From contig JAGLGN010000006.1 of NCBI GenBank assembly GCA_023144005.1, forward strand, positions 65,841 to 129,840: a stretch of DNA of 64,000 nt, in the 5' to 3' direction. Position 1 is the first letter of the stretch. Each line of letters opens with the position of its first letter. The notes under the pieces are model-generated. The model ran no database searches. It saw nothing but the letters and a program-made list of their open reading frames with translations, and had not been told where the DNA came from. Below, one piece after another: positions 1,989 through 20,173 of this stretch. Origin of the DNA: a bacterium (GTDB lineage: Bacteria; AUK180). The translations under genes and the position numbers were made by a program.

Positions 1989-4900
1989 ATGGCAAAAGAC
2001 AGCTACAAGGCCTTCCTGCCATTTGCAGGTGAGGCGCCGAAAACTAATCTAATCAAAAAAAGAGGGGCTTTGCTCTTTTCTGATGTTTCCGGATTTACAA
2101 AGATGAGCGAAGCGCTTGGGTCCCATGGAAAAGCGGGCACGGAAGCATTGATCGGAATTCTTGATATGTATTTCGGAAGAATGCTCGATATTATCAAAGA
2201 AAACAACGGTTATGTTATTTATTTCGCAGGTGACGGCATGCTCATCTCCTTCATGGATAAGACGGCTGGCAAAAAATGTTCCTCTGAAATGATGAAAGCG
2301 ATGGGGGATTTTGATAATATTCCGACACCGTTCGGCGCATTTTCTCTATCGATGAAGACAACGGGAGTTATCGGAAGCTGGAATGAGATCATTGTAGGAA
2401 ATGAGAATGCGGCAAATATCTTCATTGCGGGAGATGCCGTAAAGATGATAGCCGAGATGGAGGACAGCGCCTCTTCGGGAGAGGAGCTCTGGCAGACATT
2501 AAAGGACAAAAAAGACAATAGCAATGATTTTACATACAATTATTCACTCCCGGTCAAGGCCTATGTGCCTAATGATATACTCAAGATCGCCGAGAAGGGG
2601 CAATTCGGAGAACATCGGGCGGTAAGTGTAATATTTTTAAAGGTAAGCGGCATTGATCCCGCCTCTCCCGACATTCCGCTTTTACAGCAGGTTGTTTCCG
2701 AGATCGGAAATATTGTTGAACGATTTGGCGGAGCATTGCAGCTTATTGATAATATTTCTCCCGGATCTTTCAAAGTACTCATCACTTTCGGTGCTCCATT
2801 TTCCCGGCCGAATGATCTAATAAATTCTCTTACCGCAGGAAAGATGATAGTGAAGCAATTATCATACTATTCTCAGATCACAGTGAAATGCGGCATCAAT
2901 CAGGGTTACGCCTTTGCCGGTATAATCGGGAACAGGGACAGGAAAACATATACCTTGCTCGGTGATGCCGTAAATACCGCTGCACGGCTTGCGCAGTCCG
3001 CTGAAAAAGGCGGAGTTTATGTTTCGCGGGATGTAAAACGGCTGACAGAAGAATATTTTTCATATCGAGAGATCGAGCCTATTCGGGTTAAGGGCAAATC
3101 TGAATTACTGAAACGCTTTGAGCCTCTTGGAAAGCGGGATTTCAAAAAATATTCAACTCCATATATTGAGCGGAAAGAATATGAAAATATGATAAATGAT
3201 TTCCTTTCGGACCTCTCCAATTATGTTCTATATGTTATTGGAGAGGGAGGTATGGGTAAAACCCGGACCATACATGAGGTGCTCAAGAAGCAGGAGCTTG
3301 AGGTTTTCCGATATGAGGCCTCCAATGATCCCGGACGGGGAGATCTGCTCAAGCAGCTGCTTCTCGATATTACCGGTATGGCGGATCAGCAGGACCCCCA
3401 GCAGAAAGTGGAGAGCTTGGCTTCGTTTATATCTTTGCAGAGCGCGGAAGAGGCGGAGAGGATGTCCGACCTGCTCCCGATACTTTATTATTATCTTCTT
3501 GGACGGCCGCTTTCAGGAACGGTCTTTGAGTTTCTTGAGCCAAAGGCCATCAGAGATAACTTCATTCAAGCAGCACAGCTCATCTTAAGAAATCAAAGAT
3601 CGGTGCAGGCGGTGTGGGCGGATAATGCTCATATCCTGAATGAGGATCTGCTGCAAGAAATACTTGATCTCTTGCGCCTTGTCAATTCTTTCGACGGGGT
3701 ACCCATCAAGATGATGCTTTCATCAAGAATAATCTCCGATCAGATCCCTGACGGCAATAATAAGGTAATATTCCGCCCGATGAGAGATGCGAAGGCACAA
3801 GAGATGGCGCATGCGGTTCTGGGAAATGATGTTCACAAAACGATCGTTGACGGAATTATGAAAAAAACGGACGGCAATCCGTTTTTCATGGAACAGACCC
3901 TTTCATATTTGAGAGAAAAGGGTTTTATTGAGCTGAAAGAGGATATTTGGACACCGGCGGAAAATTATACCGAGGATCTTTTTCCTGAAAATATTTTTTC
4001 GATAGTGATGTCCCGTCTCGATGCATTGGAAGAACGGATCAAAGGAACTCTTATCATCGCGAGTGTTATGGGCATCCGTTTTTCTGGTGAGCTTCTTTCA
4101 AGGATAGATGACAAAAGCGTATTTGACTCTCTCTCTGAAGGGGAAAAGAACGGCATTATCCATTTGGAAGAAGTCATTGAGATGGAGTATATCTTTGAGC
4201 ATGCCGTCTTTCGAGATGTTATTTACGACTCTATTCTGCGGGAAAAAAGAAAGAAAATGCACCGCACAATCGCAAAAAAGATGGAAACACTGTCACGGAA
4301 TAAAAAGGCGGATTCATCAGTGCTTGCCTATCACTTCATTAATGCGGAATATTGGAAGAAGGCATATAAATATTGCGTATCCGCAGGAAAGGCGGCGGGC
4401 GAGCAGTTTTTGAACCAGGAGGCAATCAGGCATTTTAATCAAGCACTCGAAGCATGTGATCATGGGAAGATCACTCTGGTGGAGGGACAAAGATCGAGCT
4501 TGTTTCTTGAGCTCGCTCAGCTGTATTTGAATATTTCCGATTACGAAAATGCGTTGAAATACTTCAAGCTCATCGAAAAGACAGCGCCTTCAAATTCCAT
4601 CAATAAAATAGATGCACAGATATCTTCTGCTTCCGTTTTCGGGCTCAGGGGTGAATTTTCCAGACAGCGCGATATGCTGGAAGCAGTATTAAAGAGTATT
4701 CCTGATAAGATACGGGGAGCGGCGATCGCAAAGGCAAAGATCCACTCTCAAATGGCGAATCTTCTGAGAATACTGGGTGACATCCCAAGGGGGCTTGAGG
4801 AAGGGAAAAAAGCTGTGAAGCTTTTAAAGGGAAGAAGCTCTAAAAAATGCAAACTCCTTCTTTCCGCATCATACAAAGCACTTGGTTCGGTATATATCTC

Positions 4901-6071
4901 CAAGGGTAATATCCAGGCGGCCTTTGAGGCATTTACACAAGCATACAGAATCGGCGTATTGGCGCAAGACCTCAAGGGTCAATGTTATTCCCTCAACAAT
5001 ATCGGAGCAGTACTGAAATTCCAAGGGGAATTAAATAAATCCGAACGGGTATTCCAAAAATCCATGAAGATCGCCCGCGCGATCGGAGATCGCAGGATGT
5101 GGGCTACGATCCATTCAAATCTCGGTGCTGTTTACAATGGCATGGAGCGATTCGATGACGCCTTGGTCAATTTCAATAAATGTGTTGATATCTCTAATGA
5201 GATCGGGAATCTAAAGGGGCTTCAGGCAGCGTATATGAACATGGGTATCTCTTACAATTTCATGAAGGTTCAGAATCGGGCGGAAGAATCCTATACAAAA
5301 AGTATCGAGATATCAGAGGCTTTGAATTATCCCGCCGGGGTCGCAAAGGGGAATATCAATCTGGGGCTTCTTTATAAGAATATGAATGAGCTTGGCAAAG
5401 CCAGAAAGGCATTGTCCGAGGCCTTGGAGATCTGTGAAAAGGTATCGGATGAAAGAAGCAAGGGGATCGCCCTGAATAATCTGGGTCTTATCTATCTGAA
5501 GGAATGTGATCATACGAATGCGGAAAAATGTTTTTTCAGATATCTGGAGAATGCGGAAAAAGTAAGTGATAAAAACGGGATCTGTGTCGCGCATGAAGAT
5601 CTGGGAGAGCTATACCTCGATACAGAAGATCTTGAAAAAGCCATCTTCAACCTTAAGGCAGCGGAAGAACTCTCAAGGCAGAACGGCCCGAGAAGAAGGC
5701 TTGCAAAAACACTTTTCCGGCTTGGGTATCTTCTAAATGATGAGCAAAGATTTCAAGAAGGCGTAAAAATACTGGATGAAACAAAAGCCCCGGATACTGA
5801 GCTGGAATATCTGCGTTTCCTGGGGGCATTTCAATTTAAGCACGGCAAAACAACTGAGGGGATCAGGACATTGCGCAAAGGGATCAAAACAGCAGATAAA
5901 TTTCCCGAGCACATCGAACTGAAGATCTGTCTGCTCTTTGAACTTACACGGAATCTTAAGAAAAGCGGAGATCACAATAAAGAATTTATCGCTGCCAAAA
6001 AGCAATTGATCAGCGAATCAAAGAAGGCCGGCCTTGATGCCGCCGCATCTTATTACAAGGATTTTCTATAA
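1989..6071 (+). CDS. Soluble-adenylyl-cyclase-like protein: two class III cyclase domains, NTPase and TPRs
   Basis: Cytosolic signalling protein of 1360 residues with no signal peptide or membrane segment. The order is cyclase domain C1 (about 25-165), cyclase domain C2 (about 205-380), a STAND/AAA-type NTPase with Walker A GEGGMGKT at 418-425 and a probable Walker B ending at D545, then a long TPR array (about 780-1340). This is the layout of animal ADCY10. Catalytic residues are divided between the domains. C1 keeps both metal Asp (D32 in FSDVSGFT, D82 in FAGDG). C2 has lost them but keeps N329 and R333 in GDAVNTAARL, so one C1-C2 interface would form one active site. The base-selecting Lys of ADCY10 (KFAGD) is Tyr78 here, while a Thr (T322) matches its other base contact. 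Whether the product is cAMP or cGMP is therefore uncertain. The gene is monocistronic with a leaderless promoter. Confidence 0.9.
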   Translation: MAKDSYKAFLPFAGEAPKTNLIKKRGALLFSDVSGFTKMSEALGSHGKAGTEALIGILDMYFGRMLDIIKENNGYVIYFAGDGMLISFMDKTAGKKCSSEMMKAMGDFDNIPTPFGAFSLSMKTTGVIGSWNEIIVGNENAANIFIAGDAVKMIAEMEDSASSGEELWQTLKDKKDNSNDFTYNYSLPVKAYVPNDILKIAEKGQFGEHRAVSVIFLKVSGIDPASPDIPLLQQVVSEIGNIVERFGGALQLIDNISPGSFKVLITFGAPFSRPNDLINSLTAGKMIVKQLSYYSQITVKCGINQGYAFAGIIGNRDRKTYTLLGDAVNTAARLAQSAEKGGVYVSRDVKRLTEEYFSYREIEPIRVKGKSELLKRFEPLGKRDFKKYSTPYIERKEYENMINDFLSDLSNYVLYVIGEGGMGKTRTIHEVLKKQELEVFRYEASNDPGRGDLLKQLLLDITGMADQQDPQQKVESLASFISLQSAEEAERMSDLLPILYYYLLGRPLSGTVFEFLEPKAIRDNFIQAAQLILRNQRSVQAVWADNAHILNEDLLQEILDLLRLVNSFDGVPIKMMLSSRIISDQIPDGNNKVIFRPMRDAKAQEMAHAVLGNDVHKTIVDGIMKKTDGNPFFMEQTLSYLREKGFIELKEDIWTPAENYTEDLFPENIFSIVMSRLDALEERIKGTLIIASVMGIRFSGELLSRIDDKSVFDSLSEGEKNGIIHLEEVIEMEYIFEHAVFRDVIYDSILREKRKKMHRTIAKKMETLSRNKKADSSVLAYHFINAEYWKKAYKYCVSAGKAAGEQFLNQEAIRHFNQALEACDHGKITLVEGQRSSLFLELAQLYLNISDYENALKYFKLIEKTAPSNSINKIDAQISSASVFGLRGEFSRQRDMLEAVLKSIPDKIRGAAIAKAKIHSQMANLLRILGDIPRGLEEGKKAVKLLKGRSSKKCKLLLSASYKALGSVYISKGNIQAAFEAFTQAYRIGVLAQDLKGQCYSLNNIGAVLKFQGELNKSERVFQKSMKIARAIGDRRMWATIHSNLGAVYNGMERFDDALVNFNKCVDISNEIGNLKGLQAAYMNMGISYNFMKVQNRAEESYTKSIEISEALNYPAGVAKGNINLGLLYKNMNELGKARKALSEALEICEKVSDERSKGIALNNLGLIYLKECDHTNAEKCFFRYLENAEKVSDKNGICVAHEDLGELYLDTEDLEKAIFNLKAAEELSRQNGPRRRLAKTLFRLGYLLNDEQRFQEGVKILDETKAPDTELEYLRFLGAFQFKHGKTTEGIRTLRKGIKTADKFPEHIELKICLLFELTRNLKKSGDHNKEFIAAKKQLISESKKAGLDAAASYYKDFL

Positions 6072-6239: not shown

Positions 6240-9200
6240 TCATGAGATTTCAATCAACAGCTGATCCAGCAATATCCTGATTTCATGGATATCCGTTGAT
6301 TCTACCTGCCTGACATTATTTATTGCCTTCAGACATTCCAGTATCGCTTTTTCCCTGTCTTCCGCTGTCGGGATCTTTTCAAGACACTTGATCGCATTGA
6401 AAATGAATTTCATTTCCTTTTCATCAGCATCAAGCTCATTCAGCATTTCAATAATATCCGAGTTCAAGGTTTCAGGATCATATGATACCGACTCGGTGAA
6501 CGCGAAGGGCTCCTCTTCCCACCAAATGCCGTTCGCCAGATAGGAGACCTCTGTAGTAAATATAAACTCATCACCTGTATCGGGCAGTCTCGCAAAGACA
6601 TAATACTTTCTGGTTTCCCCGGCAGTGATCAGCTCATTCCAATCGACGATATTCGATTCAATCTCACCGACAGGTATTACTTCTATTATCTCAGTTCCTT
6701 CCGGAAGTATCTCACTGATCTTCGTCTGAAGGTCGAAGACATTGGATTTCACGCTTATCCTGACCGTATTGTATCCACCGGAGATTACACTTTCTTCTTC
6801 CGGCTTGACGTAGTCAATTGCGGCGGCAAGGATATCTCCAGCATCTTCAAGAGAGCTGAATATATCAAAGGCAAAGTATACCGTCTTTCCTTCTCCATAA
6901 TTATTCCCGATGATGACGGGTGACGGCAGATGCGGCGATACTGTCACATAGCCGCTCTCAAAGGACCCAAGGGATTCCACTGTATAGGTCGTCCCTGTAG
7001 TTGTCAATACTCCTTCTTCGGTGATCGGTGAATTAACAAGATTAATGGTCAGGTTATATCCATCATAGACACCGCTGTAACGGATCCCGAGAACTTCAGG
7101 AACTACTCCTTCTCCCAGGAAATGATAATAATGAGAGGTGATAAGGCCCTTTCCCGAATAGACATGTTCTCTCAATTCTTCCGAGGTATGCCCTTCGAGA
7201 TTTTCCGCATTCCCGAGAATAATATATTCGTTATATGAACCGGACCTCATACCGGAAACAAATTCACCGCTTGACTCTACAATGTCATATGTAATGATCC
7301 CTCCCAGATTATCAAAGTATTCAGATAATTGTTCATGCTGGTCTTCAGAAACATTGCTGAAATTTTCCCATATAAGGATACTTGGAATAACTGAAATATC
7401 CGCACTGATATCAAAAGCCTCCACAAGCTCAAACTGCAATGAGTTGATTGATTCAACATTTCCGGTATTATCAATACTTCTATATTCAATGGTATGCAGA
7501 CCATAACCAAATGAGGCCAGATTCATAGATTCTGTATAATGGCGCCACTCGTCATCGTCAAACCGGTATTGCGTATACTGAACTCCGCTCAATGCATCAT
7601 CAGCATGAAGTATGATCATACTTCCTTTTATAACCTCATTCAAACTGCTTATCGGATTAACTTCTATCCGAGTCTGTGCAGAAGTGAGGTCAATTGTGAA
7701 TGAGGTGAAGTGCTCGTCTGAGTATTCCCCTCCAAGATCTCGAGCATACAGATAAACCTCATATACCCCATCGTCTGTAACGGGTTCATTATCGAGGTCT
7801 TTTCCATTCCAGGTAAAAGTAATTGGAACCTCGTTTGGAGCATTTGCCTCACTCCAATAAATCTCATCTCCATCTCGATTGAAAATACCCAAATGAACAA
7901 TCGATTCCTCTGACACCGAAACACTCACTGCCAGGCTATCATTTACGCCGTCTCCATTTGGACTTAAATATTCCGGGGCAATTGAAATTGAAAGGATTTC
8001 CGGCGGACCGGGCTCATTGTGATGATAGCAAAGTGCATAATATGAAAGATGGAGCATCTCGATTGTAATCTGATTGCTGTCGTAATCCCTTGTAGTGAGA
8101 AGTTCGTCCGGCTGTGCTATAACCCATTCCGAATTCTCTTCATCGTAAGTGTAAGCCTGATAATTCGCTTCATCATACCCGAGAATAGTCAAATCATCGT
8201 AATTAAAGGCTATCTCTATATTATCTTTGAAATAATTGATCCCCGATCTTGAACTGATCTCGTATACATCTCCTATCACCATCCCAGATATTTCCGAGTA
8301 CTCAGGCACTGAAGAAACATTGTCAACACTTGTTATCTCAATGTACTCCATTCCCTGGTATAGGTCGTCACTCTCAATCTCAACTTCAACAAGACCATCA
8401 CTACTTACAATATCTCCCGGGGCATTGTAGTATTCCGGATCACATGGATCTTCCCAAATCATATATCGAATCTTAATATCTGTTATATCGTTGGCTTCGT
8501 CATAATCAGAATACACGAGGTGGCCCTGGTCACTCCACTCATAAAAAGACTTAGCACCATTATTTTCTCTTTTAGTCTTGAATTCAAATAACATTCCCTG
8601 ATCCATTCCCGTATAATCCATGTAGAAGATTGCCTTCCGAATATAATCATTTGCCGGATCGTCATCCAATGTTCGAATGAAGCTGATCTTATCACCATTT
8701 CCAGTCCATTGTATAGAATTTTCATCTATACTGTTGTCAGTAAAATATGTTAATTGAACAGGTGGATGAAAATTATCTGTATTGTAGGGCTGAATATATC
8801 CTTCATAAGGAATATTCCTTTTAATTAACCAAATGTTCCAAAAACCTCCTGCACTAGACAAATATATAATTTTAGATCCATCAGGAGAGAATTCTGGATT
8901 TTTCTCCATTGCAGAATCATTTGTAAGCCATATTCGTCTTTCAATGAAGTCTTCATCATGGACAAAGACGAGATCTTTCCTTCCACGAGTTTCAGGATCA
9001 TACCCACTTACTTCGAAAAATGAAGCTACCACTGCTTCTTCATATTGTTCTCCAGGAGCAATGCTACTCGTAGTATAAGAGAAACAAGATACCCAAATAG
9101 GAGGATCATACTCATCAAGAAATAATTTAAAATCAATTACTTTCGCTGGGTAAATCTGAGGAAAATCGTCAATAATCAAGGATTTCTGGTACAATTCACC

Positions 9201-12200
9201 GGTAATCCACACAGGTAGTCTAAAGTATCTATTCGCTATAGTATAGGACAATTTTCTCGAATTATTCGCTGATTTCAAGTGACTTATTATATCAATATGA
9301 TTTCCATCATAATACGTTTCTTCTCCACCAGAATGATGCACAGACTTCAGCTCATTTCTTTCTAATGCGCCCCAGTCAGTAAATGTTGACTCAATAAACG
9401 CAATACGAGGGATCCTGTATTTATCAACGAACCAAGTGGGTATATTTATAACTTCTTCCGAACTATATAAATTCCCCTTCTCCGATGTACTGATATCATG
9501 TCTAGTAAGTTCACTGCGGTTGTCAATATAGAAAAGATATTTGGAATCAGTCGGTTCCCAGATTGGTTCTGTTGAATGATTGCCAGGTAGATTGTTTGTA
9601 ATATTCTGCGGGTCACTCATGTGAGAAAGTTCCGTTTGAATCATATCTATCGTTACATTGGTTGTTGAATCCGTAAACCAATGAAGATTGTCATCTACCC
9701 AGACTTGAACTTGATATTCTGCATCACCTAAAAGATTTCCATCTGCATCTGTCCCATCCCAGGATATCACATATTCTCCATTATTCTCTACCGGAAATAA
9801 GACTTTTACAAGATTTGTATTTACAATCGGACCATTATATATTGCAATAACACATTCATAATACAATCCAGAACCATCATCATGTGCTGCAATCCTAAAT
9901 TCTACATTATCGTTGCACTCATCGTTATTTGGACTGAATATACTTGGACTTACATCAATCGAGTCAATGATAGGAGGTTGATCGTCAAGAAATATTTGTT
10001 GATGATGAACTTCCTCTGAATTTCCCACATTATCCTGGCTATAATATTCAATTGAATTTAAACCCGGAAGCATAAGTGTGTCATGAATTCTAAAGGGCGC
10101 GGTATAGATCTGCCAAGAGGAGTCGTTGATTCTAAAATATGTATTTTCTACTCCTGTCGCAAGCTCGCCTTCATCCCTTGCGGTTAAAGAGATCTGGGAA
10201 TAATTCACAACATATGATATTTCTTGTGTTTCGTAAACACTATACCTCAATGATATATCAGTAACTGGTGGCAATATATCTTGTTTTCCTTCTATCACCG
10301 CAACAGAAATCCCGCCTGCTTTACATTGGTCATAAGCATAGAATCTTCCTTCCAGTTCATCTTTTTGGAAAATCTTAATCCGATTGGCTGCAAGTGAACC
10401 GGCACCAGGTGAAGTTACGATCTCGTCATACCCGTCAAGGTCTATGTCACCGCAATCGTGAATACAGCCATTGGTATTAGGAGCAAGATATGCATTGAAA
10501 TTGTAAATAGGGACCGGATAAGCAGAATCCATATTAAGAATATCATATACTCGGATATTTGAATCATTGCCCTGCACCTCGCCTTTCGAGCAAACAATCT
10601 CTTCATAGTTTTTACCACTGATATTTCCACAACTCAGATATACTCCTGAGGTTACAATATCTCCAAATGCAAAGAAAGATTTTTCAGGAGAAGGATAATC
10701 TTCGTTGATATTCTCATAGCTAAATATGTTAATTCGTGAATCATTGCTCGCGCCCGGTCCCTTTCCTACGATTATTTCATCTACTCCATCATCATCAACA
10801 TCTCCACAGGAAACATTGGCTCCATGTTTTATATCATTTGAAAACGCAAAAAAGGATTTTGTTTCAGTAGCGTTATAACTAGAGTCTGTTTTCTCAATCT
10901 TGAATATTTTGACTTTGGCATAATAGTTCAAATGATGGCCCTTTCCCGCAATGATCTCATCCACTCCATCGCCGTCAATATCACCGGCAGCAATCGCGCA
11001 ACCATAATTATTTACTCCAAATGCACAAAAACTGATCAGTTTTTCCATTGTATAAAACGAGTAAATATCAATATAGCTGTCGTTGCCATCTTTTGATATT
11101 TTTGAAACAATGATCTCTTCCACGCCGTTTCCATCAATATCTCCAGTAGTGACATTCACTCCTTTTGTTGGAAATTCACTAACACCGAAAGTCTCGGGAA
11201 AGCCGTCTTTGGTAAATGATTTTATCATATCTCCTGATCTTGAAGCAGTTATAATATCGGTATTTTGCACCGGCAATTCAATATCGATATATGTATCGTA
11301 TGCTGATTCCGGCTTAGCCGGTTCAATATTGCATGAAGAATCTTTGGAAATACTCTTGAAGTAAATCCTATCGGTGTTTTTTGAAAATTGGGTCCAGGGG
11401 AAATTCGAACTTGTGCTATGGGTATATTCAGTCCCACATGCGTCAATATTCCAGATTTCCCAAGAACCGTCGTTAATTTTGTAATTAATGTTAAATCCCA
11501 AAGGATCGCCCGAATTATCCGCGCCACTCCATGAAACTGGGGTAAAAAGTTTCTTGTCAGTAATCGGTGAGGCCAAACTTACCACTGTAGAAAATGGGGG
11601 GGTTACATCTGGTTCGACCGGATTGTCTTTTCTCCCGTAAACGTACACAATATTGCTGAATTCACCACTCCAAAAGGAGTATTTTTTTGATACGGTAATT
11701 TTAAGTCTGTTCTCATTCTCTATTATCTCGAAACTGGCTTCGGTATTGCTGTTTTCTTCGTATTCAACACCGTCATAATCATAGATAGGGAATTCCGGAT
11801 CACCATCTATGTAGAATACTTTTTCAGAATCAAAGGCTGATAACTGTACTGCAATCAGTTCATTTCTGTTCCCGCCGTACGAATACTCAAATGGGTTTAT
11901 AGAGGGTCCCATGTTTTCACCGTCCTCGACTGTAACACTAAAATTGATCGCCTCAGGATCAAAAGGACTCCACATATCCTGAGAATTTATCCAGTAGATA
12001 AATGTTCTTACTGTACAGCCCGCGATTCCGCAACCGTAGTTTTTGAAGGACCCCGGTACAACTTCCGCCCAGCCATAGTCATTAATATAAGAATCGAATT
12101 CAAGACCGTTACTGCTTGCTGAAATTTCCGGCTGCGAAGAATGAGTGTACGGAAAAGTAACATCCATCCTGATCTCACGGCGATTCGCATGATAAAGGCC

Positions 12201-14528
12201 GAAAACATCATAAGCGAAAAGTATTGTCTCATCCGCATATTGTTCATATGTGTATGTGGTTGTTTCAATATTAAAATTGATTCTTCTTACAGTGCTATTG
12301 CCTGCTTTGTCAATTGCGTAAATATCTAAGACATGATGCCCTTCTGAAGCGATCTGTTCCCCTTCATTGTAAGGATTTCCGTCTAAAGTTATATACGAAA
12401 TGTCACTGTTAATGTTTTGATCGATCATGAATATTTGTGGGAGGATTATTGTATTCTGAAATATGTCTCCATCTTTAACACCGTAAACATCTATCAAAGG
12501 TGCAGTTTTATCGATAATTATTTTACTCTCGAATCTTGTAGTATTACCTGCAATATCGCTGGCATATACATTCAGATTGTAAATACCTTCATTATCAAGT
12601 TCAATGCTGTTTTCAGAAGGAATCCCATCAAGAAGTATCTCCGATTCTACCAGATGATCTTCTATAATATCAATATTTAAAGCAACATTTGTATTAAAAT
12701 ATCGTTTGCTGCCCGATGAAATGGAGCTGGCGCTATTTATTTCCGAAACTAATATTTGTGGAAATGTTTTATCAACATTTATCAGTATCTCATCTTCGGT
12801 GACATTGTCCGCACCATCGGTAACAACTAATTTGAGTTTGTATTCTCCGCCACTTGTTAAAGTGGTCGTGTCCCAGACAACAAGTAAAGAATCGGTAACT
12901 GAAATATTTTGCTGCTTATTAATAATTGTGGTGTACTCCGTAGAATCCTTTTTCGCATATGATATTTCATAACTACGGATATGATCATCTGTCGCTGTAC
13001 CCTTGATGTTACATGATGCGCCAACCCATTGATCTGCAACCGGATATGTGATCTCCGCTATAGGAGGAACTCTATCAAGAAGAACATTTACAATGTGTCG
13101 TTTAAATAAACCGTCACCATCCATACCTTTCAAAATAAATCGATATCCGCCATCAGTTTCTAAAGCAGGATCCCAATTGTAGACAACCTCTGAAGAAACG
13201 GATTGATCGGAAACATATATATCCCCACTCATATTGAAAACGGGATCATCCAGTGGCAGCAGAGTTCTCTCGCCTGTAGTTAAGTTCTTCTTCATCAGGA
13301 TCCAGTAAATATCGGATGAAGAAATCGGAGAAATAGAGGCGGTTACATCAATAAGCTGACTACTGGCAATCCCCGTCCCGTCAGTAGGATATTCCAATAC
13401 TGCTTGGGGTACGCTCCCTGTTTCTTCAAGTTCAATATGAGCAAACTGTCCCCATATCTCAGTATAGAATTCACCGTCAATATTTGAAAAAATACTTATC
13501 TCACTTCCTCTGGCACATGTTAGAATGTCCTCAGTTTCTTCTCCTCTGAAATATCCCGTATTTGGGATAAGAAAATCTGAACTTCTTTGCTGGAATACTT
13601 CAATGACCGTTCCTGTGAAATCAATTATTGTAGAATGTCCTCCCAAACCGGTGATGAGAATTTCTGGGTTTCCCGTATTGTCATAATTAAAAATACGAAT
13701 TCCCATAACTGTGGTAGGTATAGTGAATAGGGTCCTATTGAATGATATCGCTCCATCATACGTAAGAATATCGACATTACCATTGACATCGCCTAATAGA
13801 ATATCCGCAATTCCGTCACCATCAAGATCTCCAGCAGCAGGAGGACAGACCAGAATATTTCCGCTATCGAAAGTGATCCAACCGGCAGTATAATTCCATA
13901 CAGCAACACTACCGTCTCCACAATTTGCGAATATTTCAGAGATACCGTCCTCGTCAATATCCTTGAGGGTAAGATATGTATATTCTCCTGAAGTGACAGT
14001 ATGGGTTTCGATTTCTACCCATGAAGTTCCATCGTGATCATCCCACACATACACATTGCCATCTGAAGTCCCTGCAACAAAATCAAGATCTCCATCGCCG
14101 TCCATATCGGACGCAATTGGCGTATCACTGATAGGTACATTAATGTCTCTTGGCCAGCCGGCCACATCGCTGCCACTTGAATGGAATGCGTGCATCTTGA
14201 TATTGCCTACAGAATCCTTTGAACAGACAAGTATCTCAGAAGCCCTGTCATTATCAAGATCGACGAGAATCGGAGAAGTATAGAAGACTCTTCCGGTCAG
14301 GGCTTTCGGCCAGCCCGTAACAACCTTTCGATACCGATTCCAGACGGTGAGCCGTCCGTCATCTGAAACAGTCGCGATCTCACGGCCTGTCGCCAGAAAG
14401 ATTCCTTCTATTCCGTCAATATCTCCGAGTGCAGAAGAATCGAGTGAGACAGATGGAATCAGAATAAAGGCAATGACAAGTGATAATAAACCAAATATCT
14501 TTGAATCCAATTTTATTTTATTGTACAT
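6240..14528 (-). CDS. Giant exported FG-GAP / Ig-like / FlgD-like surface protein
   Basis: 2762 residues. The ATG at 14528 is chosen because AAGGGG (14535-14540) lies 6 bases upstream; an upstream in-frame start would run into the preceding gene. A hydrophobic segment at about 10-26 acts as a signal peptide. FG-GAP/VCBS-type calcium loops such as DMDGDGDLD (about 140) and DLDGDGIAD (about 238) are followed by Ig-like modules. A second FG-GAP block sits at about 1125-1375. Two FlgD-Ig-like modules begin with SPNND (about 1531) and SPNGDGVND (about 2189), and a TolB-like WSPDG-type repeat (EFSPDGSKI) lies at about 1880. The tail (about 2680-2762) is helical and charged, unlike a sorting domain. 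A structural, adhesive or matrix role outside the cell is likely; I see no catalytic site. It is the last gene of the run starting with the RHS gene. Confidence 0.8.
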   Translation of the reverse strand: MYNKIKLDSKIFGLLSLVIAFILIPSVSLDSSALGDIDGIEGIFLATGREIATVSDDGRLTVWNRYRKVVTGWPKALTGRVFYTSPILVDLDNDRASEILVCSKDSVGNIKMHAFHSSGSDVAGWPRDINVPISDTPIASDMDGDGDLDFVAGTSDGNVYVWDDHDGTSWVEIETHTVTSGEYTYLTLKDIDEDGISEIFANCGDGSVAVWNYTAGWITFDSGNILVCPPAAGDLDGDGIADILLGDVNGNVDILTYDGAISFNRTLFTIPTTVMGIRIFNYDNTGNPEILITGLGGHSTIIDFTGTVIEVFQQRSSDFLIPNTGYFRGEETEDILTCARGSEISIFSNIDGEFYTEIWGQFAHIELEETGSVPQAVLEYPTDGTGIASSQLIDVTASISPISSSDIYWILMKKNLTTGERTLLPLDDPVFNMSGDIYVSDQSVSSEVVYNWDPALETDGGYRFILKGMDGDGLFKRHIVNVLLDRVPPIAEITYPVADQWVGASCNIKGTATDDHIRSYEISYAKKDSTEYTTIINKQQNISVTDSLLVVWDTTTLTSGGEYKLKLVVTDGADNVTEDEILINVDKTFPQILVSEINSASSISSGSKRYFNTNVALNIDIIEDHLVESEILLDGIPSENSIELDNEGIYNLNVYASDIAGNTTRFESKIIIDKTAPLIDVYGVKDGDIFQNTIILPQIFMIDQNINSDISYITLDGNPYNEGEQIASEGHHVLDIYAIDKAGNSTVRRINFNIETTTYTYEQYADETILFAYDVFGLYHANRREIRMDVTFPYTHSSQPEISASSNGLEFDSYINDYGWAEVVPGSFKNYGCGIAGCTVRTFIYWINSQDMWSPFDPEAINFSVTVEDGENMGPSINPFEYSYGGNRNELIAVQLSAFDSEKVFYIDGDPEFPIYDYDGVEYEENSNTEASFEIIENENRLKITVSKKYSFWSGEFSNIVYVYGRKDNPVEPDVTPPFSTVVSLASPITDKKLFTPVSWSGADNSGDPLGFNINYKINDGSWEIWNIDACGTEYTHSTSSNFPWTQFSKNTDRIYFKSISKDSSCNIEPAKPESAYDTYIDIELPVQNTDIITASRSGDMIKSFTKDGFPETFGVSEFPTKGVNVTTGDIDGNGVEEIIVSKISKDGNDSYIDIYSFYTMEKLISFCAFGVNNYGCAIAAGDIDGDGVDEIIAGKGHHLNYYAKVKIFKIEKTDSSYNATETKSFFAFSNDIKHGANVSCGDVDDDGVDEIIVGKGPGASNDSRINIFSYENINEDYPSPEKSFFAFGDIVTSGVYLSCGNISGKNYEEIVCSKGEVQGNDSNIRVYDILNMDSAYPVPIYNFNAYLAPNTNGCIHDCGDIDLDGYDEIVTSPGAGSLAANRIKIFQKDELEGRFYAYDQCKAGGISVAVIEGKQDILPPVTDISLRYSVYETQEISYVVNYSQISLTARDEGELATGVENTYFRINDSSWQIYTAPFRIHDTLMLPGLNSIEYYSQDNVGNSEEVHHQQIFLDDQPPIIDSIDVSPSIFSPNNDECNDNVEFRIAAHDDGSGLYYECVIAIYNGPIVNTNLVKVLFPVENNGEYVISWDGTDADGNLLGDAEYQVQVWVDDNLHWFTDSTTNVTIDMIQTELSHMSDPQNITNNLPGNHSTEPIWEPTDSKYLFYIDNRSELTRHDISTSEKGNLYSSEEVINIPTWFVDKYRIPRIAFIESTFTDWGALERNELKSVHHSGGEETYYDGNHIDIISHLKSANNSRKLSYTIANRYFRLPVWITGELYQKSLIIDDFPQIYPAKVIDFKLFLDEYDPPIWVSCFSYTTSSIAPGEQYEEAVVASFFEVSGYDPETRGRKDLVFVHDEDFIERRIWLTNDSAMEKNPEFSPDGSKIIYLSSAGGFWNIWLIKRNIPYEGYIQPYNTDNFHPPVQLTYFTDNSIDENSIQWTGNGDKISFIRTLDDDPANDYIRKAIFYMDYTGMDQGMLFEFKTKRENNGAKSFYEWSDQGHLVYSDYDEANDITDIKIRYMIWEDPCDPEYYNAPGDIVSSDGLVEVEIESDDLYQGMEYIEITSVDNVSSVPEYSEISGMVIGDVYEISSRSGINYFKDNIEIAFNYDDLTILGYDEANYQAYTYDEENSEWVIAQPDELLTTRDYDSNQITIEMLHLSYYALCYHHNEPGPPEILSISIAPEYLSPNGDGVNDSLAVSVSVSEESIVHLGIFNRDGDEIYWSEANAPNEVPITFTWNGKDLDNEPVTDDGVYEVYLYARDLGGEYSDEHFTSFTIDLTSAQTRIEVNPISSLNEVIKGSMIILHADDALSGVQYTQYRFDDDEWRHYTESMNLASFGYGLHTIEYRSIDNTGNVESINSLQFELVEAFDISADISVIPSILIWENFSNVSEDQHEQLSEYFDNLGGIITYDIVESSGEFVSGMRSGSYNEYIILGNAENLEGHTSEELREHVYSGKGLITSHYYHFLGEGVVPEVLGIRYSGVYDGYNLTINLVNSPITEEGVLTTTGTTYTVESLGSFESGYVTVSPHLPSPVIIGNNYGEGKTVYFAFDIFSSLEDAGDILAAAIDYVKPEEESVISGGYNTVRISVKSNVFDLQTKISEILPEGTEIIEVIPVGEIESNIVDWNELITAGETRKYYVFARLPDTGDEFIFTTEVSYLANGIWWEEEPFAFTESVSYDPETLNSDIIEMLNELDADEKEMKFIFNAIKCLEKIPTAEDREKAILECLKAINNVRQVESTDIHEIRILLDQLLIEIS

Positions 14529-14574
14529 ATTCAACCCCTTATTATTCCTCCTTTTCTGAGAAAATATATTGATC

Positions 14575-15531
14575 TTACTCTTCATGCTTTCCTCCATACT
14601 TTTTAAGTAGTTTGATTATCTTGTCAAATTCATTCTGTCGCCTTATATCGCCTTCAAGATCCGTTCGCTCTGCAATAGCAATATCCAATGGTGTTTGACC
14701 TTTTTCATCTTTTATATTCGGATCAGCACCCCTTTTTAAGAGAATTTCACATGCCTCGTAGTGTCTTCTAAATACTGAATTAAAAAGAGGGGTCCAAGTT
14801 GTCTCAGGAAATCCTCCGGAAATTTTAGCGCCGCTGTCCAATAAAAGTGTAATTGCAGTTAATTGATTCCTTTGAGCAGCCCCGTTCAGTGGTGTCATTC
14901 CGTGTTGATCGTTGATTTCCGTATCCGCTCCTTTTTCAAGCAGTAATTTTACAATTTCATTATATCCCTGTGAAGAAGCTTTGTGTAGCGCAGTGCTTTT
15001 TGTGAATATTGCTTTATTTACATCTTCAGTTTCAATAAATTTCTTCACTGCATCTATATCATTTCTGAATACGGCATAATACAATTCATCTGTTTCGATA
15101 ACTTCATTTTTAATAGTATCTACAATAAATACCGATTGCCTTATTAGGGATTGACCAATGTATAATCGGTATATACCTTTTTCCTGGGTCTTTTCCATAT
15201 GACACCAGTCTTTAGGGTTATTTGACGTCCCAAATGCCCAGGCACCGGCGTCAGCATCGAAAAAATGGATCTCTAATTTCTTCTTTTTACCGTTCTGTTC
15301 GATATACAGATATGATCTGATATGTGCAAAAAGCATTTTCATTCCAAGTGTAGGACCGGAATCTATTGTGATTATTTCCAAATAATAATGCACTGGCCCT
15401 TCCTCGGTCTGAAATGTTTGTTTTTCATTTACCCATCTTCCTCTACATCCTGAAGAAGAAATCAGAATGATCAAAACAATACTTGGCAATATTACATCTT
15501 TCAGCAGCCAATCCCTACTACCAATCTTCAT
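14575..15531 (-). CDS. Ankyrin-repeat lipoprotein, candidate immunity protein for the RHS lipase
   Basis: 318 residues. The ATG at 15531 lies 1 base after the RHS stop codon, implying coupled translation; a longer reading frame upstream only overlaps the RHS gene. The N-terminus is hydrophobic and ends in a lipobox-like SSGC with the Cys at 29, so envelope anchoring is likely, although a Ser at the -3 position is suboptimal. A unique region of about 130 residues follows, with no family I recognise. About four ankyrin repeats then run from about residue 165 to the end, with typical phrases such as TALHKASSQGY, LLLEKGAD and GADPNIKDEKGQTPLDIA. Known lipase effectors of type VI systems are often paired with envelope immunity lipoproteins, so neutralising the upstream lipase domain is the favoured guess. 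It could instead be a general scaffold. The segment shares the AT-rich composition of the RHS gene. Confidence 0.8.
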   Translation of the reverse strand: MKIGSRDWLLKDVILPSIVLIILISSSGCRGRWVNEKQTFQTEEGPVHYYLEIITIDSGPTLGMKMLFAHIRSYLYIEQNGKKKKLEIHFFDADAGAWAFGTSNNPKDWCHMEKTQEKGIYRLYIGQSLIRQSVFIVDTIKNEVIETDELYYAVFRNDIDAVKKFIETEDVNKAIFTKSTALHKASSQGYNEIVKLLLEKGADTEINDQHGMTPLNGAAQRNQLTAITLLLDSGAKISGGFPETTWTPLFNSVFRRHYEACEILLKRGADPNIKDEKGQTPLDIAIAERTDLEGDIRRQNEFDKIIKLLKKYGGKHEE

Positions 15532-15532
15532 A

Positions 15533-18500
15533 CTATTTTCCGGTCCTTTTTTTAAGCATCTGGTCCCAAACATGTTTCGAAAGCATATTCGAATGATGGC
15601 TTTCGCCAAATAATAATGCTTTGGTAGCAACTTCAATATCTTTTGCCTTATCATCTGTTCTTCCCGTAAAGAAAAATGAAAAAGCCACAGCATTCATGTA
15701 GCAGTTAGTGCCTAGAAATTCTGTAAGTATTGGCCCGCCGACTAATTGAACTCGATCTTTGTTGGAATAGACATTGTAGTAGTTGACAACATTACTCATA
15801 TCCATTTCGTAATCGACCCTTTGCGGGGTTGCGAAGGTAATAATAGTTTGTACTTCTTGTGAAAATGAGGGGGAGGCTTCCTTTACAATATTCCCTCCGT
15901 GGCTATGCGCAATTATATGTATTTTTTCATTTCCAATTATTGTATAGTTATCAATATATTCAAGCAAGGCCTTAGCGCCTGCGGTTCTTGCCTCTGGAGT
16001 ATTAGCTTCAGAAAGTGATGCGGGCCAATAAATTGGATGAACTGGATTGCCTTCGTCCCCAAGCGATCTCTGAATATAATTCATATACTCTTCATCCGGA
16101 GTCCAAGATTCATCACCAGACCCCGTACCCTTCACGGTAATTACCACATATCCGGCATAATCAATATTGGATAATGGATTATTACTTCCGTAAATATATC
16201 TGTTTAAAGATTGAGGATTGGCGGAGCTTCCAATGAGTTTATCCTTTGAAATAAATCTGCCTAATTCCGAAAAGTAATACCTTGCTCCGAAATTGTCGAG
16301 GCCCGTTTCAATGTCCCTTTCCTTTCCTGTAAATAAATGAGCCTCTTCTTCTCCTTGAGATAGGATCATATTTCCGAACGGATCCAATGTATTTTCAGTA
16401 ACTATCTCCCCAAGCTCATCGGTAATGATTATATTATTGCCTATATAATCCTGATGATAATATGCTATGCTTCCAGTACTATTTTCTGCCAATGTAATTC
16501 TATTTCCTGCGTATACAAAAGTATTTTGTCTTGCACCGGTTTTATCGTATTCTTCGATTACATTTCCTCCAATATCATAGATATAGATCGTTGTATTGCC
16601 AGGAGTTGTCTTAATTATTCTCCTTCCTTCGCCATCATAAGCAAATGATATTGAATATTCAATAATCCCGGGTTGATTCAAATCAGGCTCTCCCGGATTT
16701 TGGAAATCCACTCGTGTTAGCAAATTATCATAGTTATAACTAAATATTTTTTTCTTGACTTGACCACTTAGATTAGAGACCGTTTCCGAAATAATATTTC
16801 CATTGTTGTCATATACATAATTATGCGTACTTCCATTGCTACCTGAGTCAACGGTCATTGTGCTCAACTGATCTGAATTTCCCGTGTAATTGTAGCCAAT
16901 ATCTTCATAACTGGATTGCTGAGACACTCTATTTCCAGTAGAATCATAAGCGTAGCTTGCATCATTGGCGTCAGGATAATCCACCGATGTAAGCCTGATC
17001 AGTGGATCATAAGTATAATTAGTGGTACTCCCGTTAATTTTAGCCCTAGAAATAATACTACCGTTCTTATCATAGTTAAAATCGTCTTTATACATTAGTT
17101 GATTAATTCCTTTAAATATTTGATGAGAATCAATCAATCCTCGAGCGTTGTAAGTAAATTTCGTTGTTGAAATTGTTCCGTAATTAGAAGTTAATTCCTT
17201 TTGTGTAACATTCCCGAGGTTGTTATATTCATACCCAGCTATATCTTTATTATCGTACTTGATTGTATCCACCCATCCATGATCGTTCCTCTCATATAAT
17301 ACTTTCTTTCCCGATGGATAAGTTATTTCCTTTAATTCACCAGTCTCATAATATATATATGTTGAAATATACTCTGCATCGTTAATAGTATCCTTTTTCT
17401 GGACAAATCTCCCCATAGAATCATAGACATATTCTGTGCTACTCTCTATCTCTAGTGGGGATTCCGGCAAACTATAATATGATATTTTCTCCGTTAAATC
17501 ATTATCAAAATACTTAAAGGTTTTTTTCGTGTCATCTGGGTATTTTCTTTCTATTATCCGATTGAAGTCATCATAATCGAGATAAATTTTGTTATCATTC
17601 ATGTCTTGTGTATACTCTACGAGGCTAGATGATATATACGAGGTATGCTTAATCAGGCCTTCGCTGCATCCATCGTATCTATCGTATATATCATAATTTA
17701 TATCTGTAATGAATCCTCGAGCATTAGTAATCCGTGCTATATCATTAAACATTCCATTGTATTCGTACGTTGTGACTCCATTTGTACCTGGTTCATCACA
17801 ACGGATTATTCTTCCAATCTTATCCATAGTGAAAATCGTCTGATTACCTTCCGGATCCTTAACAATCTTTTTCATATTGCCATCATCATATGTAATTGAA
17901 GAATTTGTCCCATCAGGATAATTAATCTGAATCAATCGATATTGTTTATCATATACATACTCTGTTGTCTTTTTCTCAGCATCAGTAATTGTCTTGATCT
18001 TTCCACCAGGATGATATGAGTATGTCGTTGATAACCCAGCTTCGTCAATTTTGATGAGTCTTTTAATAGAATTATAATAATAGGTTGTGACTCGACCTGC
18101 GTCATCAACGGTTACTATATTATTAATATCATCCAACGTATATGAAATATTTGTTTTGTCCGGCCTTGTTTCATTCAACACTCTCCCAAGATTATCATAG
18201 TTGAATTCACTATAATTCCCAAGATTATCAAATTCTAGCTTGATTAGACCATTGGGATAATACTCATACTTATTAAAAAGTTCACCATTCCTACGTACTT
18301 CCGTAAGATTTCCTTCAGCACTGTACGAAAGAGAATGTACAAGATCTTCATTCAACTCAAATTTCTCGGTCACAAGACCCTTGCTATTGTATGAAAATCT
18401 TGTGTCGGAAATTTGTGCAAGATATCGTCTCTCTATATTTCCCCTAATATTTCCCTCATCATAGTATTCTGTATTTATTTCGATATTATTTCCATTCAAT

Positions 18501-19984
18501 GTTTCACTTTGTCTAGTTTGCAGGCCGATTATGTACAGCCCTGTTGGGGTCTCCGAATTGAACTCATCTATATTTAAATAAGTATAAGTGTAAATATATG
18601 ACAACGGATTTGTATATAAAGTTATATTACCGTAAGCATCATATTCATATGATTCAAGATAATCAATTTCTTGATCATCTTCTGGAGACTTTCGAGTTCT
18701 TGTTGCTTGTTCAAGATTTAGTTTCTCTTTATCAACCCAATCCTGATGAGGAGGTCCATCAATAACCCAGTCATTTACAGTAACAACACCGGGTTGCTCA
18801 CTTCTCACCATTTTGAATGTATAAATAAATTCTCCAGCAGCTTCAGTGTTATTAATATAGAATTTTTCAAACCAAAATTTGCTCAAATATCCGTTTGGGT
18901 CGGTTACTTCCGTATAATGAAGGTATATTCTACCCCAATAAGGATCTGCACATGCTTCACCTTCATCATATGTATTTTTCACTAGATCAAATCTATATGT
19001 AGATACTTCATCTGAATTTTCTGCACTTTTTAGAGTTTTTGTAAGCTGCAATCCTTGAAGAAATTCAGAAGTACAAATACTGCCGTTCAATTTTTCCTCG
19101 TTTTCAATTGTATCAAATGACAGGTAGTCATATTTAACAATAGCACCAGATGAATATGTAATTTCCGTAAGCTTCCATTGGAAATCATTGTAAATATCTG
19201 TATCATAGAGCTCATAGGAGTACTTTGTTTCCCGGCCATTTGGATTAACGACTTTTGTTAATAACGAATTATCGTCATATTCATATGAAAAAGATATTTC
19301 CACCTCTTCATGATTCTTATATTTAATTCTACTGATCAAACCCTTATCGGCATCGAAATATTCAAATGTGTAGTCATATCTCCCCGCTGAATCAAATACC
19401 GATACTATCTGAAATGGTGGCAAGGGACTTCTAATTAATCGAATATTATTATCATTCTTGTCCAGAATCTTTATTGGAAGTCCATGAAAATTGAAGGTAA
19501 TCTTCGTCCCATTTGGTTTAGCTAATACCCATGTATTAGTTGTATCTTCATATATCAGTTTATCGCGGACTCCTGGCTCCAATGGGATTCCCTCATCTGA
19601 CGGGTGTCCCGTCATGAAATAGGTTTGTCGAGAACCATCTCCATAGATTACTATGGCTTTATTACTTGCGCTGGGATAATCTGTTTCAATACGATTAATT
19701 CCATTTACACTGAACGACCATTCGCAATTCTGATATCGCAAATTGCTATTATATGTTCTAGTAATAATTAATGGGATTCCAACTCCAGGTGCTGAAACAT
19801 CTGTGTGTCGAATAATAATATTACCGTTAAACAGATTAATATCCTCTTCCGTACGATCGCTGGCAAATGCCTGCAATGGAGAATAACCAAGTCCATTTAC
19901 ACCCGGTTCAGTCGGCTCTGCAACTGAATAGCAATTAAGCCCGATTATTAGAAGTAATAATACAATTGAAAATTTAGTTTTCAT
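15533..19984 (-). CDS. RHS/YD-repeat protein with C-terminal lipase-like alpha/beta-hydrolase domain
   Basis: 1483 residues with an N-terminal signal peptide (hydrophobic to about residue 21). A DUF6531-like N-terminal stretch (NLFNGNIII...PLIITRTYNS) is followed by many YD repeats, then the RHS core end (LFTGKERDIETGLDNFGARY, ISKDKLIG, NRYIYGSNNPLSNID). The usual DPxG boundary is degenerate, reading DYAG. The last 204 residues (from about 1280) look like a lipase: an early KGTGSG turn, the nucleophile elbow AHSHGG with S1361, a candidate acid D1410 and candidate His 1463/1464. RHS shells enclose or display C-terminal toxins, so this is a predicted lipase effector or an exported lipase. No type VI, type VII or TcB/TcC genes are in the window, so the delivery route is unknown. 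The start is supported by the GA-rich stretch GGGAGAGAGGA abutting the ATG. The gene is visibly AT-richer than its upstream neighbour. Confidence 0.85.
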   Translation of the reverse strand: MKTKFSIVLLLLIIGLNCYSVAEPTEPGVNGLGYSPLQAFASDRTEEDINLFNGNIIIRHTDVSAPGVGIPLIITRTYNSNLRYQNCEWSFSVNGINRIETDYPSASNKAIVIYGDGSRQTYFMTGHPSDEGIPLEPGVRDKLIYEDTTNTWVLAKPNGTKITFNFHGLPIKILDKNDNNIRLIRSPLPPFQIVSVFDSAGRYDYTFEYFDADKGLISRIKYKNHEEVEISFSYEYDDNSLLTKVVNPNGRETKYSYELYDTDIYNDFQWKLTEITYSSGAIVKYDYLSFDTIENEEKLNGSICTSEFLQGLQLTKTLKSAENSDEVSTYRFDLVKNTYDEGEACADPYWGRIYLHYTEVTDPNGYLSKFWFEKFYINNTEAAGEFIYTFKMVRSEQPGVVTVNDWVIDGPPHQDWVDKEKLNLEQATRTRKSPEDDQEIDYLESYEYDAYGNITLYTNPLSYIYTYTYLNIDEFNSETPTGLYIIGLQTRQSETLNGNNIEINTEYYDEGNIRGNIERRYLAQISDTRFSYNSKGLVTEKFELNEDLVHSLSYSAEGNLTEVRRNGELFNKYEYYPNGLIKLEFDNLGNYSEFNYDNLGRVLNETRPDKTNISYTLDDINNIVTVDDAGRVTTYYYNSIKRLIKIDEAGLSTTYSYHPGGKIKTITDAEKKTTEYVYDKQYRLIQINYPDGTNSSITYDDGNMKKIVKDPEGNQTIFTMDKIGRIIRCDEPGTNGVTTYEYNGMFNDIARITNARGFITDINYDIYDRYDGCSEGLIKHTSYISSSLVEYTQDMNDNKIYLDYDDFNRIIERKYPDDTKKTFKYFDNDLTEKISYYSLPESPLEIESSTEYVYDSMGRFVQKKDTINDAEYISTYIYYETGELKEITYPSGKKVLYERNDHGWVDTIKYDNKDIAGYEYNNLGNVTQKELTSNYGTISTTKFTYNARGLIDSHQIFKGINQLMYKDDFNYDKNGSIISRAKINGSTTNYTYDPLIRLTSVDYPDANDASYAYDSTGNRVSQQSSYEDIGYNYTGNSDQLSTMTVDSGSNGSTHNYVYDNNGNIISETVSNLSGQVKKKIFSYNYDNLLTRVDFQNPGEPDLNQPGIIEYSISFAYDGEGRRIIKTTPGNTTIYIYDIGGNVIEEYDKTGARQNTFVYAGNRITLAENSTGSIAYYHQDYIGNNIIITDELGEIVTENTLDPFGNMILSQGEEEAHLFTGKERDIETGLDNFGARYYFSELGRFISKDKLIGSSANPQSLNRYIYGSNNPLSNIDYAGYVVITVKGTGSGDESWTPDEEYMNYIQRSLGDEGNPVHPIYWPASLSEANTPEARTAGAKALLEYIDNYTIIGNEKIHIIAHSHGGNIVKEASPSFSQEVQTIITFATPQRVDYEMDMSNVVNYYNVYSNKDRVQLVGGPILTEFLGTNCYMNAVAFSFFFTGRTDDKAKDIEVATKALLFGESHHSNMLSKHVWDQMLKKRTGK

Positions 19985-20015
19985 TCCTCTCTCCCAATTT
20001 ATCTACATATGCTAT

Positions 20016-20045
20016 ATTATACACTTAATCGTTATTTAAAATCAA
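20016..20045 (-). promoter_or_regulatory. Promoter of the RHS-ankyrin-FG-GAP run
   Basis: Minus-strand TTGATT (20040-20045), an 18-bp spacer and consensus TATAAT (20016-20021). The start codon is at 19984, leaving a leader of about 25 bases with a purine-rich ribosome site. Unlike the leaderless promoters in this window, it allows normal Shine-Dalgarno initiation. Confidence 0.6.
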
Positions 20046-20143
20046 TAGAATCTCGTCTCTTTTTGGAAATTCTCAAGTTAATCAGAATCATGCAGAAACC
20101 CGTTACTCTTTTGATGTAAAATTGATTGAAAACAATAATTTCA

Positions 20144-20163
20144 GGGAGGGTCGAAACCCTCCC
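20144..20163 (-). terminator. 8-bp stem with UUCG loop after the lamin-tail/PLD giant
   Basis: GGGAGGGT and ACCCTCCC pair perfectly. On the minus strand the loop is TTCG, the stable UUCG tetraloop class. It begins 10 bases past the stop codon at 20174. The sequence after it is only moderately T-rich (ATTATTGTTTT). It separates the giant from the RHS promoter. Confidence 0.65.
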
Positions 20164-20173
20164 CGTTTATACA

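Follow-up and report, generated by a model that had tools for sequence, protein, structure and literature searches.

A bacterial protein of soluble adenylyl cyclase build with a hydrophobic residue at the base-reading position

Gene and domain layout

The window analysed here is a stretch of 64,000 nucleotides of contig JAGLGN010000006.1 (assembly GCA_023144005.1, positions 65,841 to 129,840 of the forward strand) from a bacterium of the AUK180 lineage. The gene in question lies near its beginning, as a single open reading frame (ORF) of 1360 residues, and encodes two class III cyclase domains (C1 and C2) followed by a STAND-type NTPase and an array of TPRs. This domain order had been proposed in a preliminary description made from the sequence alone, and it was borne out by Pfam for C2, the NTPase and the TPRs, and by phmmer and a predicted model for C1. 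The features are as follows, in window coordinates.

1989–6071, plus strand: gene, cyclase C1, cyclase C2, STAND NTPase and TPRs (ORF, Pfam and orthologue comparison)
2049–2501, plus strand: C1 class III cyclase domain, about residues 21–171 (phmmer to CyaC, Cya2 and ADCY10; model and structural match over both domains)
2556–3143, plus strand: C2 class III cyclase domain, about residues 190–385 (Pfam Guanylate_cyc; phmmer to ADCY10; model)
3171–4328, plus strand: STAND-type NTPase and the following helical domains, about residues 395–780 (Pfam AAA_22; model; structural matches)
4410–5768, plus strand: TPR array, residues 808–1260, probable sensor (Pfam TPR_12, E 3e-38, and others)

Pfam reported Guanylate_cyc at C2 only (residues 294–373), AAA_22 at residues 412–575 and a long TPR array. 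C1 was unreported at the threshold used, and phmmer aligned it with CyaC, Cya2 and ADCY10. The reading frame is a real gene: an orthologue with 91% identity over the full length is present in a genome of the same genus (G001), and the ratios of nonsynonymous to synonymous substitution rates (dN/dS) against this orthologue are 0.078 for the cyclase part and 0.165 for the remainder. Ratios this low point to purifying selection on the protein.

Catalytic core

AlphaFold modelled residues 1–388 with a mean predicted local distance difference test score (pLDDT) of 92.2 and a predicted template modelling score (pTM) of 0.90. The top 24 structural matches of this model were all human soluble adenylyl cyclase (sAC, ADCY10), the best being 4clk with a Z score of 38.6, a root-mean-square deviation (rmsd) of 2.4 Å over 358 aligned residues and 24% identity. 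Foldseek concurred (4usw, E 2e-27). A profile built from 52 tandem sequences found human sAC over both domains with an E value of 1e-75, the next being CyaB (1.6e-39). The single chain holds two class III domains, and their mutual arrangement in the predicted model is that of human sAC. Alignment and model together show a bacterial protein of sAC build, whose two cyclase domains are predicted to form one active site.

The preliminary description had further claimed that C1 keeps only the two metal-binding aspartates and C2 only the Asn/Arg pair, which would leave one asymmetric active site per chain. The residues concerned were compared in an alignment of 129 tandem sequences, made up of 73 rows minus three partial ones and of the 64 of 72 fetched loci with both domains, minus five duplicates.

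2082–2084, plus strand: D32, first metal Asp (sAC Asp47); Asp in 129/129 tandem sequences
2232–2234, plus strand: D82, second metal Asp (sAC Asp99); Asp in 129/129
2355–2357, plus strand: K123, kept at the position of sAC Lys144 (pyrophosphate), by alignment and published residue roles (PMC12867704)
2640–2642, plus strand: K218 in C2, first metal position, where Asp is absent; Asp in 0/129 at this column
2973–2975, plus strand: N329 (sAC Asn412); Asn in 128/129
2985–2987, plus strand: R333 (sAC Arg416, alpha-phosphate); Arg in 126/129

Since the comparison loci were fetched by peptide patterns matching residues of about 27–36 and 306–315 of the window's protein, the conservation of these columns in the above counts is biased. 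C1 carries K152 and E156 at the positions of the C2 Asn/Arg pair. In C2 the first metal position is K218, and the second is likewise without Asp; the latter column aligns unclearly, other members often having an Asp one to two columns later. The absence of Asp from the first metal column of C2 throughout the set nevertheless answers the objection that the C2 metal residues might be present after all. The claimed split thus agrees with the alignment, and the single asymmetric site is supported by alignment and model as one competent composite site. Judged from the aligned sequences, however, the split is the ordinary state of the bacterial tandem family and of human sAC, and not special to the window's protein, because it is common to essentially the whole family (Chloroflexota, Actinomycetota, Pseudomonadota, Cyanobacteriota, Planctomycetota and others share the tandem C1–C2 and the same residue split) and to human sAC.

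The likeness to human sAC thus comprises the tandem class III domains with C1 metals and C2 Asn/Arg, the fold match over both domains, a counterpart for each of Asp47, Asp99, Lys144, Thr405, Asn412 and Arg416, and a P-loop region after the cyclase pair, which in human sAC is a predicted STAND domain (PMC12802110). The window's protein differs in being bacterial, in its low identity and in having Leu252, Tyr78 and Ala155 in place of sAC Lys334, Lys95 and Arg176; its TPR array is assigned by Pfam.

Residues at the base-recognition and bicarbonate positions

Four positions bear on nucleotide choice and on bicarbonate. Pocket contacts were derived from the alignment, not from distances in the model.

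2220–2222, plus strand: Y78, aligned with Lys95 of the sAC bicarbonate site; not a base reader (HMMER pairwise alignment, profile column and published roles)
2451–2453, plus strand: A155, in place of Arg176, the bicarbonate switch of sAC; no Arg here (alignment)
2742–2744, plus strand: L252, opposite sAC Lys334, the base-reading Lys (pairwise HMMER alignment of C2 with ADCY10; column survey)
2952–2954, plus strand: T322, retained counterpart of the adenine-contacting Thr405 of sAC; Thr or Ser in 125/129

Tyr78 stands four residues before the metal Asp, and in pairwise HMMER alignments with homodimeric cyclases it faces a Lys in CyaC (1wc0) and a Glu in Cya2 (2w01). In the profile it shares a column with Lys95 of human sAC. 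The published roles assign base recognition to other residues. Lys334 of sAC recognises the base via water, and Lys95 and Arg176 are described as bicarbonate ligands (PMC12867704); the adenine contact Thr405 is located in C2 (PMC12250328). In a homodimeric cyclase structure, monomer A gives Asp482 and Asp527, and monomer B gives Glu523, Cys592, Asn599 and Arg603 (PMC2576301). The base readers and the Asn/Arg pair therefore come from one chain and the metal residues from the other, and the base reader of a tandem enzyme is to be sought in C2.

The statement that Tyr78 occupies an ADCY10 Lys position was accordingly correct as to the Lys95 column and mistaken as to its being the adenine-reading Lys, since Lys95 belongs to the bicarbonate site and the readers are Lys334 and Thr405. 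The question of nucleotide specificity that had been attached to Tyr78 was not upheld: the residue belongs to the bicarbonate, pseudo-symmetric site, and its column is of median variability. We ruled out Tyr78 as a substrate reader on published residue roles and domain geometry. To take the Lys that precedes the C1 metal Asp by four residues for the base reader of a tandem cyclase is a tempting misreading, which the present comparison corrects.

The specificity question does arise in the aligned sequences, from Leu252, which the preliminary description did not mention. Of the two base positions, that of Lys334 holds Leu252 and that of Thr405 retains a Thr, Thr322. Base reading is probably weakened in the window's protein, because the base-contacting Lys of sAC is here a Leu. 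Neither of the mammalian-sAC bicarbonate residues is present.

Variation at positions 78 and 252

The genome encodes 13 tandem paralogues, the window's protein included. Position 78 in these is Ser in three, Thr, Gly and Arg in two each, and Glu, Ala, Tyr and His in one each, with no Lys, and position 252 is Lys in seven, Leu in four, Glu in one and Gly in one. Among 56 sequences from seven genomes of the window's class (G000–G006), 34 have Lys at 252 and three at 78. For 59 sequences of other groups, all from named genomes, the counts of Lys or Arg are 37 at 252 and 44 at 78. After removal of near-identical rows (129 to 110), a tree was built without columns 78 and 252. Column 78 changes 46 times on it (median 45, rank 162 of 344), compared to 31 changes at column 252, 16 at 322, one at 329 and two at 333. 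At position 78, Lys occurs in 69% of 49 non-redundant comparison rows and, within the window's class, in 6% of 47. Column 78 was the most-lost consensus column in that comparison, but the idea that it is under special selection was dropped, since its change count on the tree is about the median. On these counts position 78 is unremarkable in the tandem family, matching the report that Lys95 or Arg176 is substituted in most non-mammalian animal sACs (PMC12867704).

Eleven of the 13 paralogues have a close counterpart in the same-genus genome. Residue 78 is identical in all 11 pairs and residue 252 in the 10 readable pairs, the remaining counterpart being a fragment, and Leu252 itself is kept in the orthologue. 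A subclade of 10 rows contains the window's protein, two of its paralogues (L021 and L023), one sequence each from two genomes of the class (L113 from G005 and L126 from G006) and five from Fermentibacterota/Aegiribacteria. Residue 252 is Leu in four of these, Met in five and Pro in one, so that the subclade is without the Lys or Arg seen in most of the sequences from other groups. Thr322 is kept, as are the residues for catalysis and phosphate binding. Because these residues occur throughout the subclade, the swap of the base-reading Lys for a hydrophobic residue is, from the alignment and the tree, inherited and not confined to a single gene. The order of branching is less certain: the Shimodaira–Hasegawa-like approximate likelihood ratio test (SH-aLRT) gives 85 for the subclade (drawn open) and 98 for an enclosing clade of 14 rows (starred), in which residue 252 is also Lys, Asp and Cys.

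The STAND NTPase and the TPRs

Three short motifs mark the NTPase.

3240–3263, plus strand: Walker A, GEGGMGKT, residues 418–425; its Gly/Gly/Gly/Lys are invariant in the alignment
3609–3623, plus strand: Walker B-like AVWAD, residues 541–545 (sequence)
3870–3887, plus strand: DGNPFF motif, residues 628–633 (sequence and alignment)

We take the last to be a GNPF-type motif as in MalT and the STAND ATPases. A model of residues 385–825, built with 32 sequences, had a pLDDT of 85.5 and a pTM of 0.78. It best matched MalT (8bob; Z 24.5, rmsd 4.1, 360 aligned; the entry title refers to the maltose system), then 6mfv, the STAND protein PH0952 with a TPR sensor (Z 23.6, rmsd 4.2, 345 aligned), Apaf-1 (3sfz; Z 21.1, rmsd 4.1, 366 aligned) and plant nucleotide-binding leucine-rich repeat receptors (NLRs). 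The P-loop, the Walker B and the GNPF-type motif were thus found together, in the predicted model, with a nucleotide-binding domain and helical and winged-helix domains of the MalT/Apaf-1 type. MalT and PH0952 share with the window's protein a STAND NTPase fold followed by helical repeats. MalT acts on DNA, whereas the output of the window's protein would be the N-terminal cyclase pair.

Immediately after the cyclase pair, every one of the 13 tandem paralogues has an AAA_16 domain, the match of the window's own protein being weak and below the cut-off (E 1.5e-4). TPRs were found by Pfam in the window's protein, to which that search was confined. Among the 13 paralogues are two shorter ones, of 865 and 905 residues. 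For full-length sAC, a STAND domain containing a P-loop is predicted, and autoinhibition by the C-terminal part is reported (PMC12802110). Given this autoinhibition and the STAND/TPR architecture, gating by the two C-terminal parts is a natural reading, and the earlier suggestion that the NTPase-TPR part could act as a gate is supported by the model in that the part resembles MalT, a STAND-TPR sensor and Apaf-1 and appears fit for gating.

Proposed mechanism and alternative explanations

We propose, with a probability of about 0.68, that the protein is an active, cytosolic, sensor-gated class III nucleotidyl cyclase of sAC build, gated by its STAND and TPR parts and most likely producing cAMP. 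C1 and C2 would pack together into a pseudo-heterodimer with a single functional active site, to which, by alignment and model, C1 would supply the two metal Asps and C2 Thr322, Asn329 and Arg333. The mirror-image site has lost its catalytic residues; where sAC has the bicarbonate residues Lys95 and Arg176, it carries Tyr78 and Ala155, so that bicarbonate control would not be expected. The STAND ATPase and the TPRs most likely hold the cyclase low until the TPRs bind a ligand or partner. An ADP/ATP exchange, probably with oligomerisation as in MalT or Apaf-1, would then let C1 and C2 close. Such gating is suggested by the fold and by the family. As for the product, cAMP is the most likely one, at somewhat better than even odds.

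Several points weigh against this proposal. With Leu252 a base contact is lost for which all three animal sACs in the table of PMC12867704 have a Lys. When the equivalent Lys of Ma1120 was changed to Glu, adenylyl cyclase activity was cut by 92% at pH 7.5 (PMC4215837). The nucleotides tested on human sAC in PMC12802110 had no isoform-specific effect via the C-terminal P-loop. No effector gene adjoins the window's gene; the flanking genes encode an M20 peptidase and a giant protein with repeats. On the other hand, about 40% of the activity of the Ma1120 mutant was left at pH 9 (PMC4215837), and loss of the Lys therefore need not end cAMP synthesis. Like the window's protein, XC_0250 of Xanthomonas campestris combines a cyclase and TPRs in one bacterial protein whose catalytic letters are non-canonical; it differs in having a single cyclase domain, without the Asn/Arg pair. 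Lacking several canonical residues, it is reported to make cGMP but not cAMP (PMC3770947). From the behaviour of these two proteins, the nucleotide cannot be read from sequence.

An active enzyme with a product other than cAMP is accordingly the alternative to be weighed first; Leu and Thr at the base positions would then favour another nucleotide (GTP or a pyrimidine) or make the enzyme unselective. The retention of Leu252 in the same-genus orthologue, the hydrophobic residues at 252 in all 10 rows of the subclade, the cGMP made by XC_0250 and a sister paralogue with Glu, the guanylyl cyclase letter, at the base position all point that way. We nevertheless regard it as rather unlikely, because neither the guanylyl cyclase Glu/Cys pair nor a known pyrimidine-cyclase pattern was found in the window's protein, Thr322 is kept, and a non-canonical residue alone does not show a new substrate. 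Guanylyl cyclase proper was rejected, the window's gene having Leu252 and Thr322 in place of Glu and Cys at the two base positions. We also rejected Pycsar (PycC with an effector). No effector neighbour is present, the PADLOC PycC matches span about 60–80 residues of C2 only, and the base residues given for clade D PycC (F60, K104 and F109, versus metal Asps D62 and D106; PMC11224242) lie two before the metal Asps or three after the second, and not at the position discussed here. A bolder form of the idea is more doubtful still: that the subclade spanning the window's class, Fermentibacterota and Aegiribacteria exchanged the base-reading Lys for a hydrophobic residue with catalysis kept, so as to make a non-cAMP cyclic nucleotide or a deliberate mixture, and that the 13 sAC-like paralogues send different cyclic nucleotides.

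A pseudo-enzyme role, in which the cyclase pair would bind nucleotide and control the STAND part without making a messenger, is improbable. The structural matches do include 6yii (Z 24.6), by its entry title a class III cyclase-like ATP-binding protein from Pseudomonas, and the base-reading and bicarbonate residues are lost, but the metal, alpha-phosphate and ribose residues hardly vary, in contrast to the drifting regulatory site, and the low dN/dS also disagrees with a pseudo-enzyme, which would be expected to lose some catalytic residues. The proposal that Tyr78 replaces the adenine-reading Lys and alters substrate choice is scarcely tenable. It draws on the alignment with CyaC and Cya2, yet each chain of a homodimer serves both sites, with the base reader coming from the Asn/Arg chain (PMC2576301); the Asn/Arg domain of sAC is C2, and column 78 varies like the median column.

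If the sAC-type cyclase proposed here is active, it separates two usually tied class III traits, in that the catalytic residues are fixed and the base-reading Lys is lost. The paralogues, with their Lys, Leu, Glu and Gly at position 252, would then constitute a natural set in one genome for a direct test of the base residue in sAC-type enzymes.

Paralogues and possible signal receptors

Literature searches, limited to listings of open-licence papers, found nothing on bacterial tandem sAC-STAND proteins, which may be described elsewhere. The 13 tandem sAC-like cyclases with AAA_16 (e.g. L021–L027, L034, L036, L045 and L046) lie in one genome of 2.67 Mb, four of them on one contig of 50.8 kb. 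Similar expansions of tandem cyclases were seen in same-class genomes and in one genome of another phylum-level group (G036). In one paralogue (L025, 9548–10747, minus strand), Glu at the base position (GGVLNEIE) is accompanied by Thr at the second. Separate cyclases of the genome (e.g. L028–L031) keep Lys at the base position. Cyclic-nucleotide receptors are available in the form of five proteins with PF00027. The GE...RSA cassette is intact in two of these, has His for the phosphate-binding Arg in two others (L040 and L042), and was not found as a pattern in the fifth.

Neighbouring genes

The cyclase gene has no neighbour on its own strand; it is flanked by the M20 peptidase and by a protein of 2785 residues, each on the minus strand, and this three-gene neighbourhood is kept in the same-genus genome. 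The large protein (6240–14597, minus strand), which is present in the orthologous place there, has FG-GAP/Ig-like repeats, seen by eye only. Two further giant frames, of 1483 and 2879 residues, occupy 15533–28813, and the GC content drops to 35% at 16–20 kb of the window.

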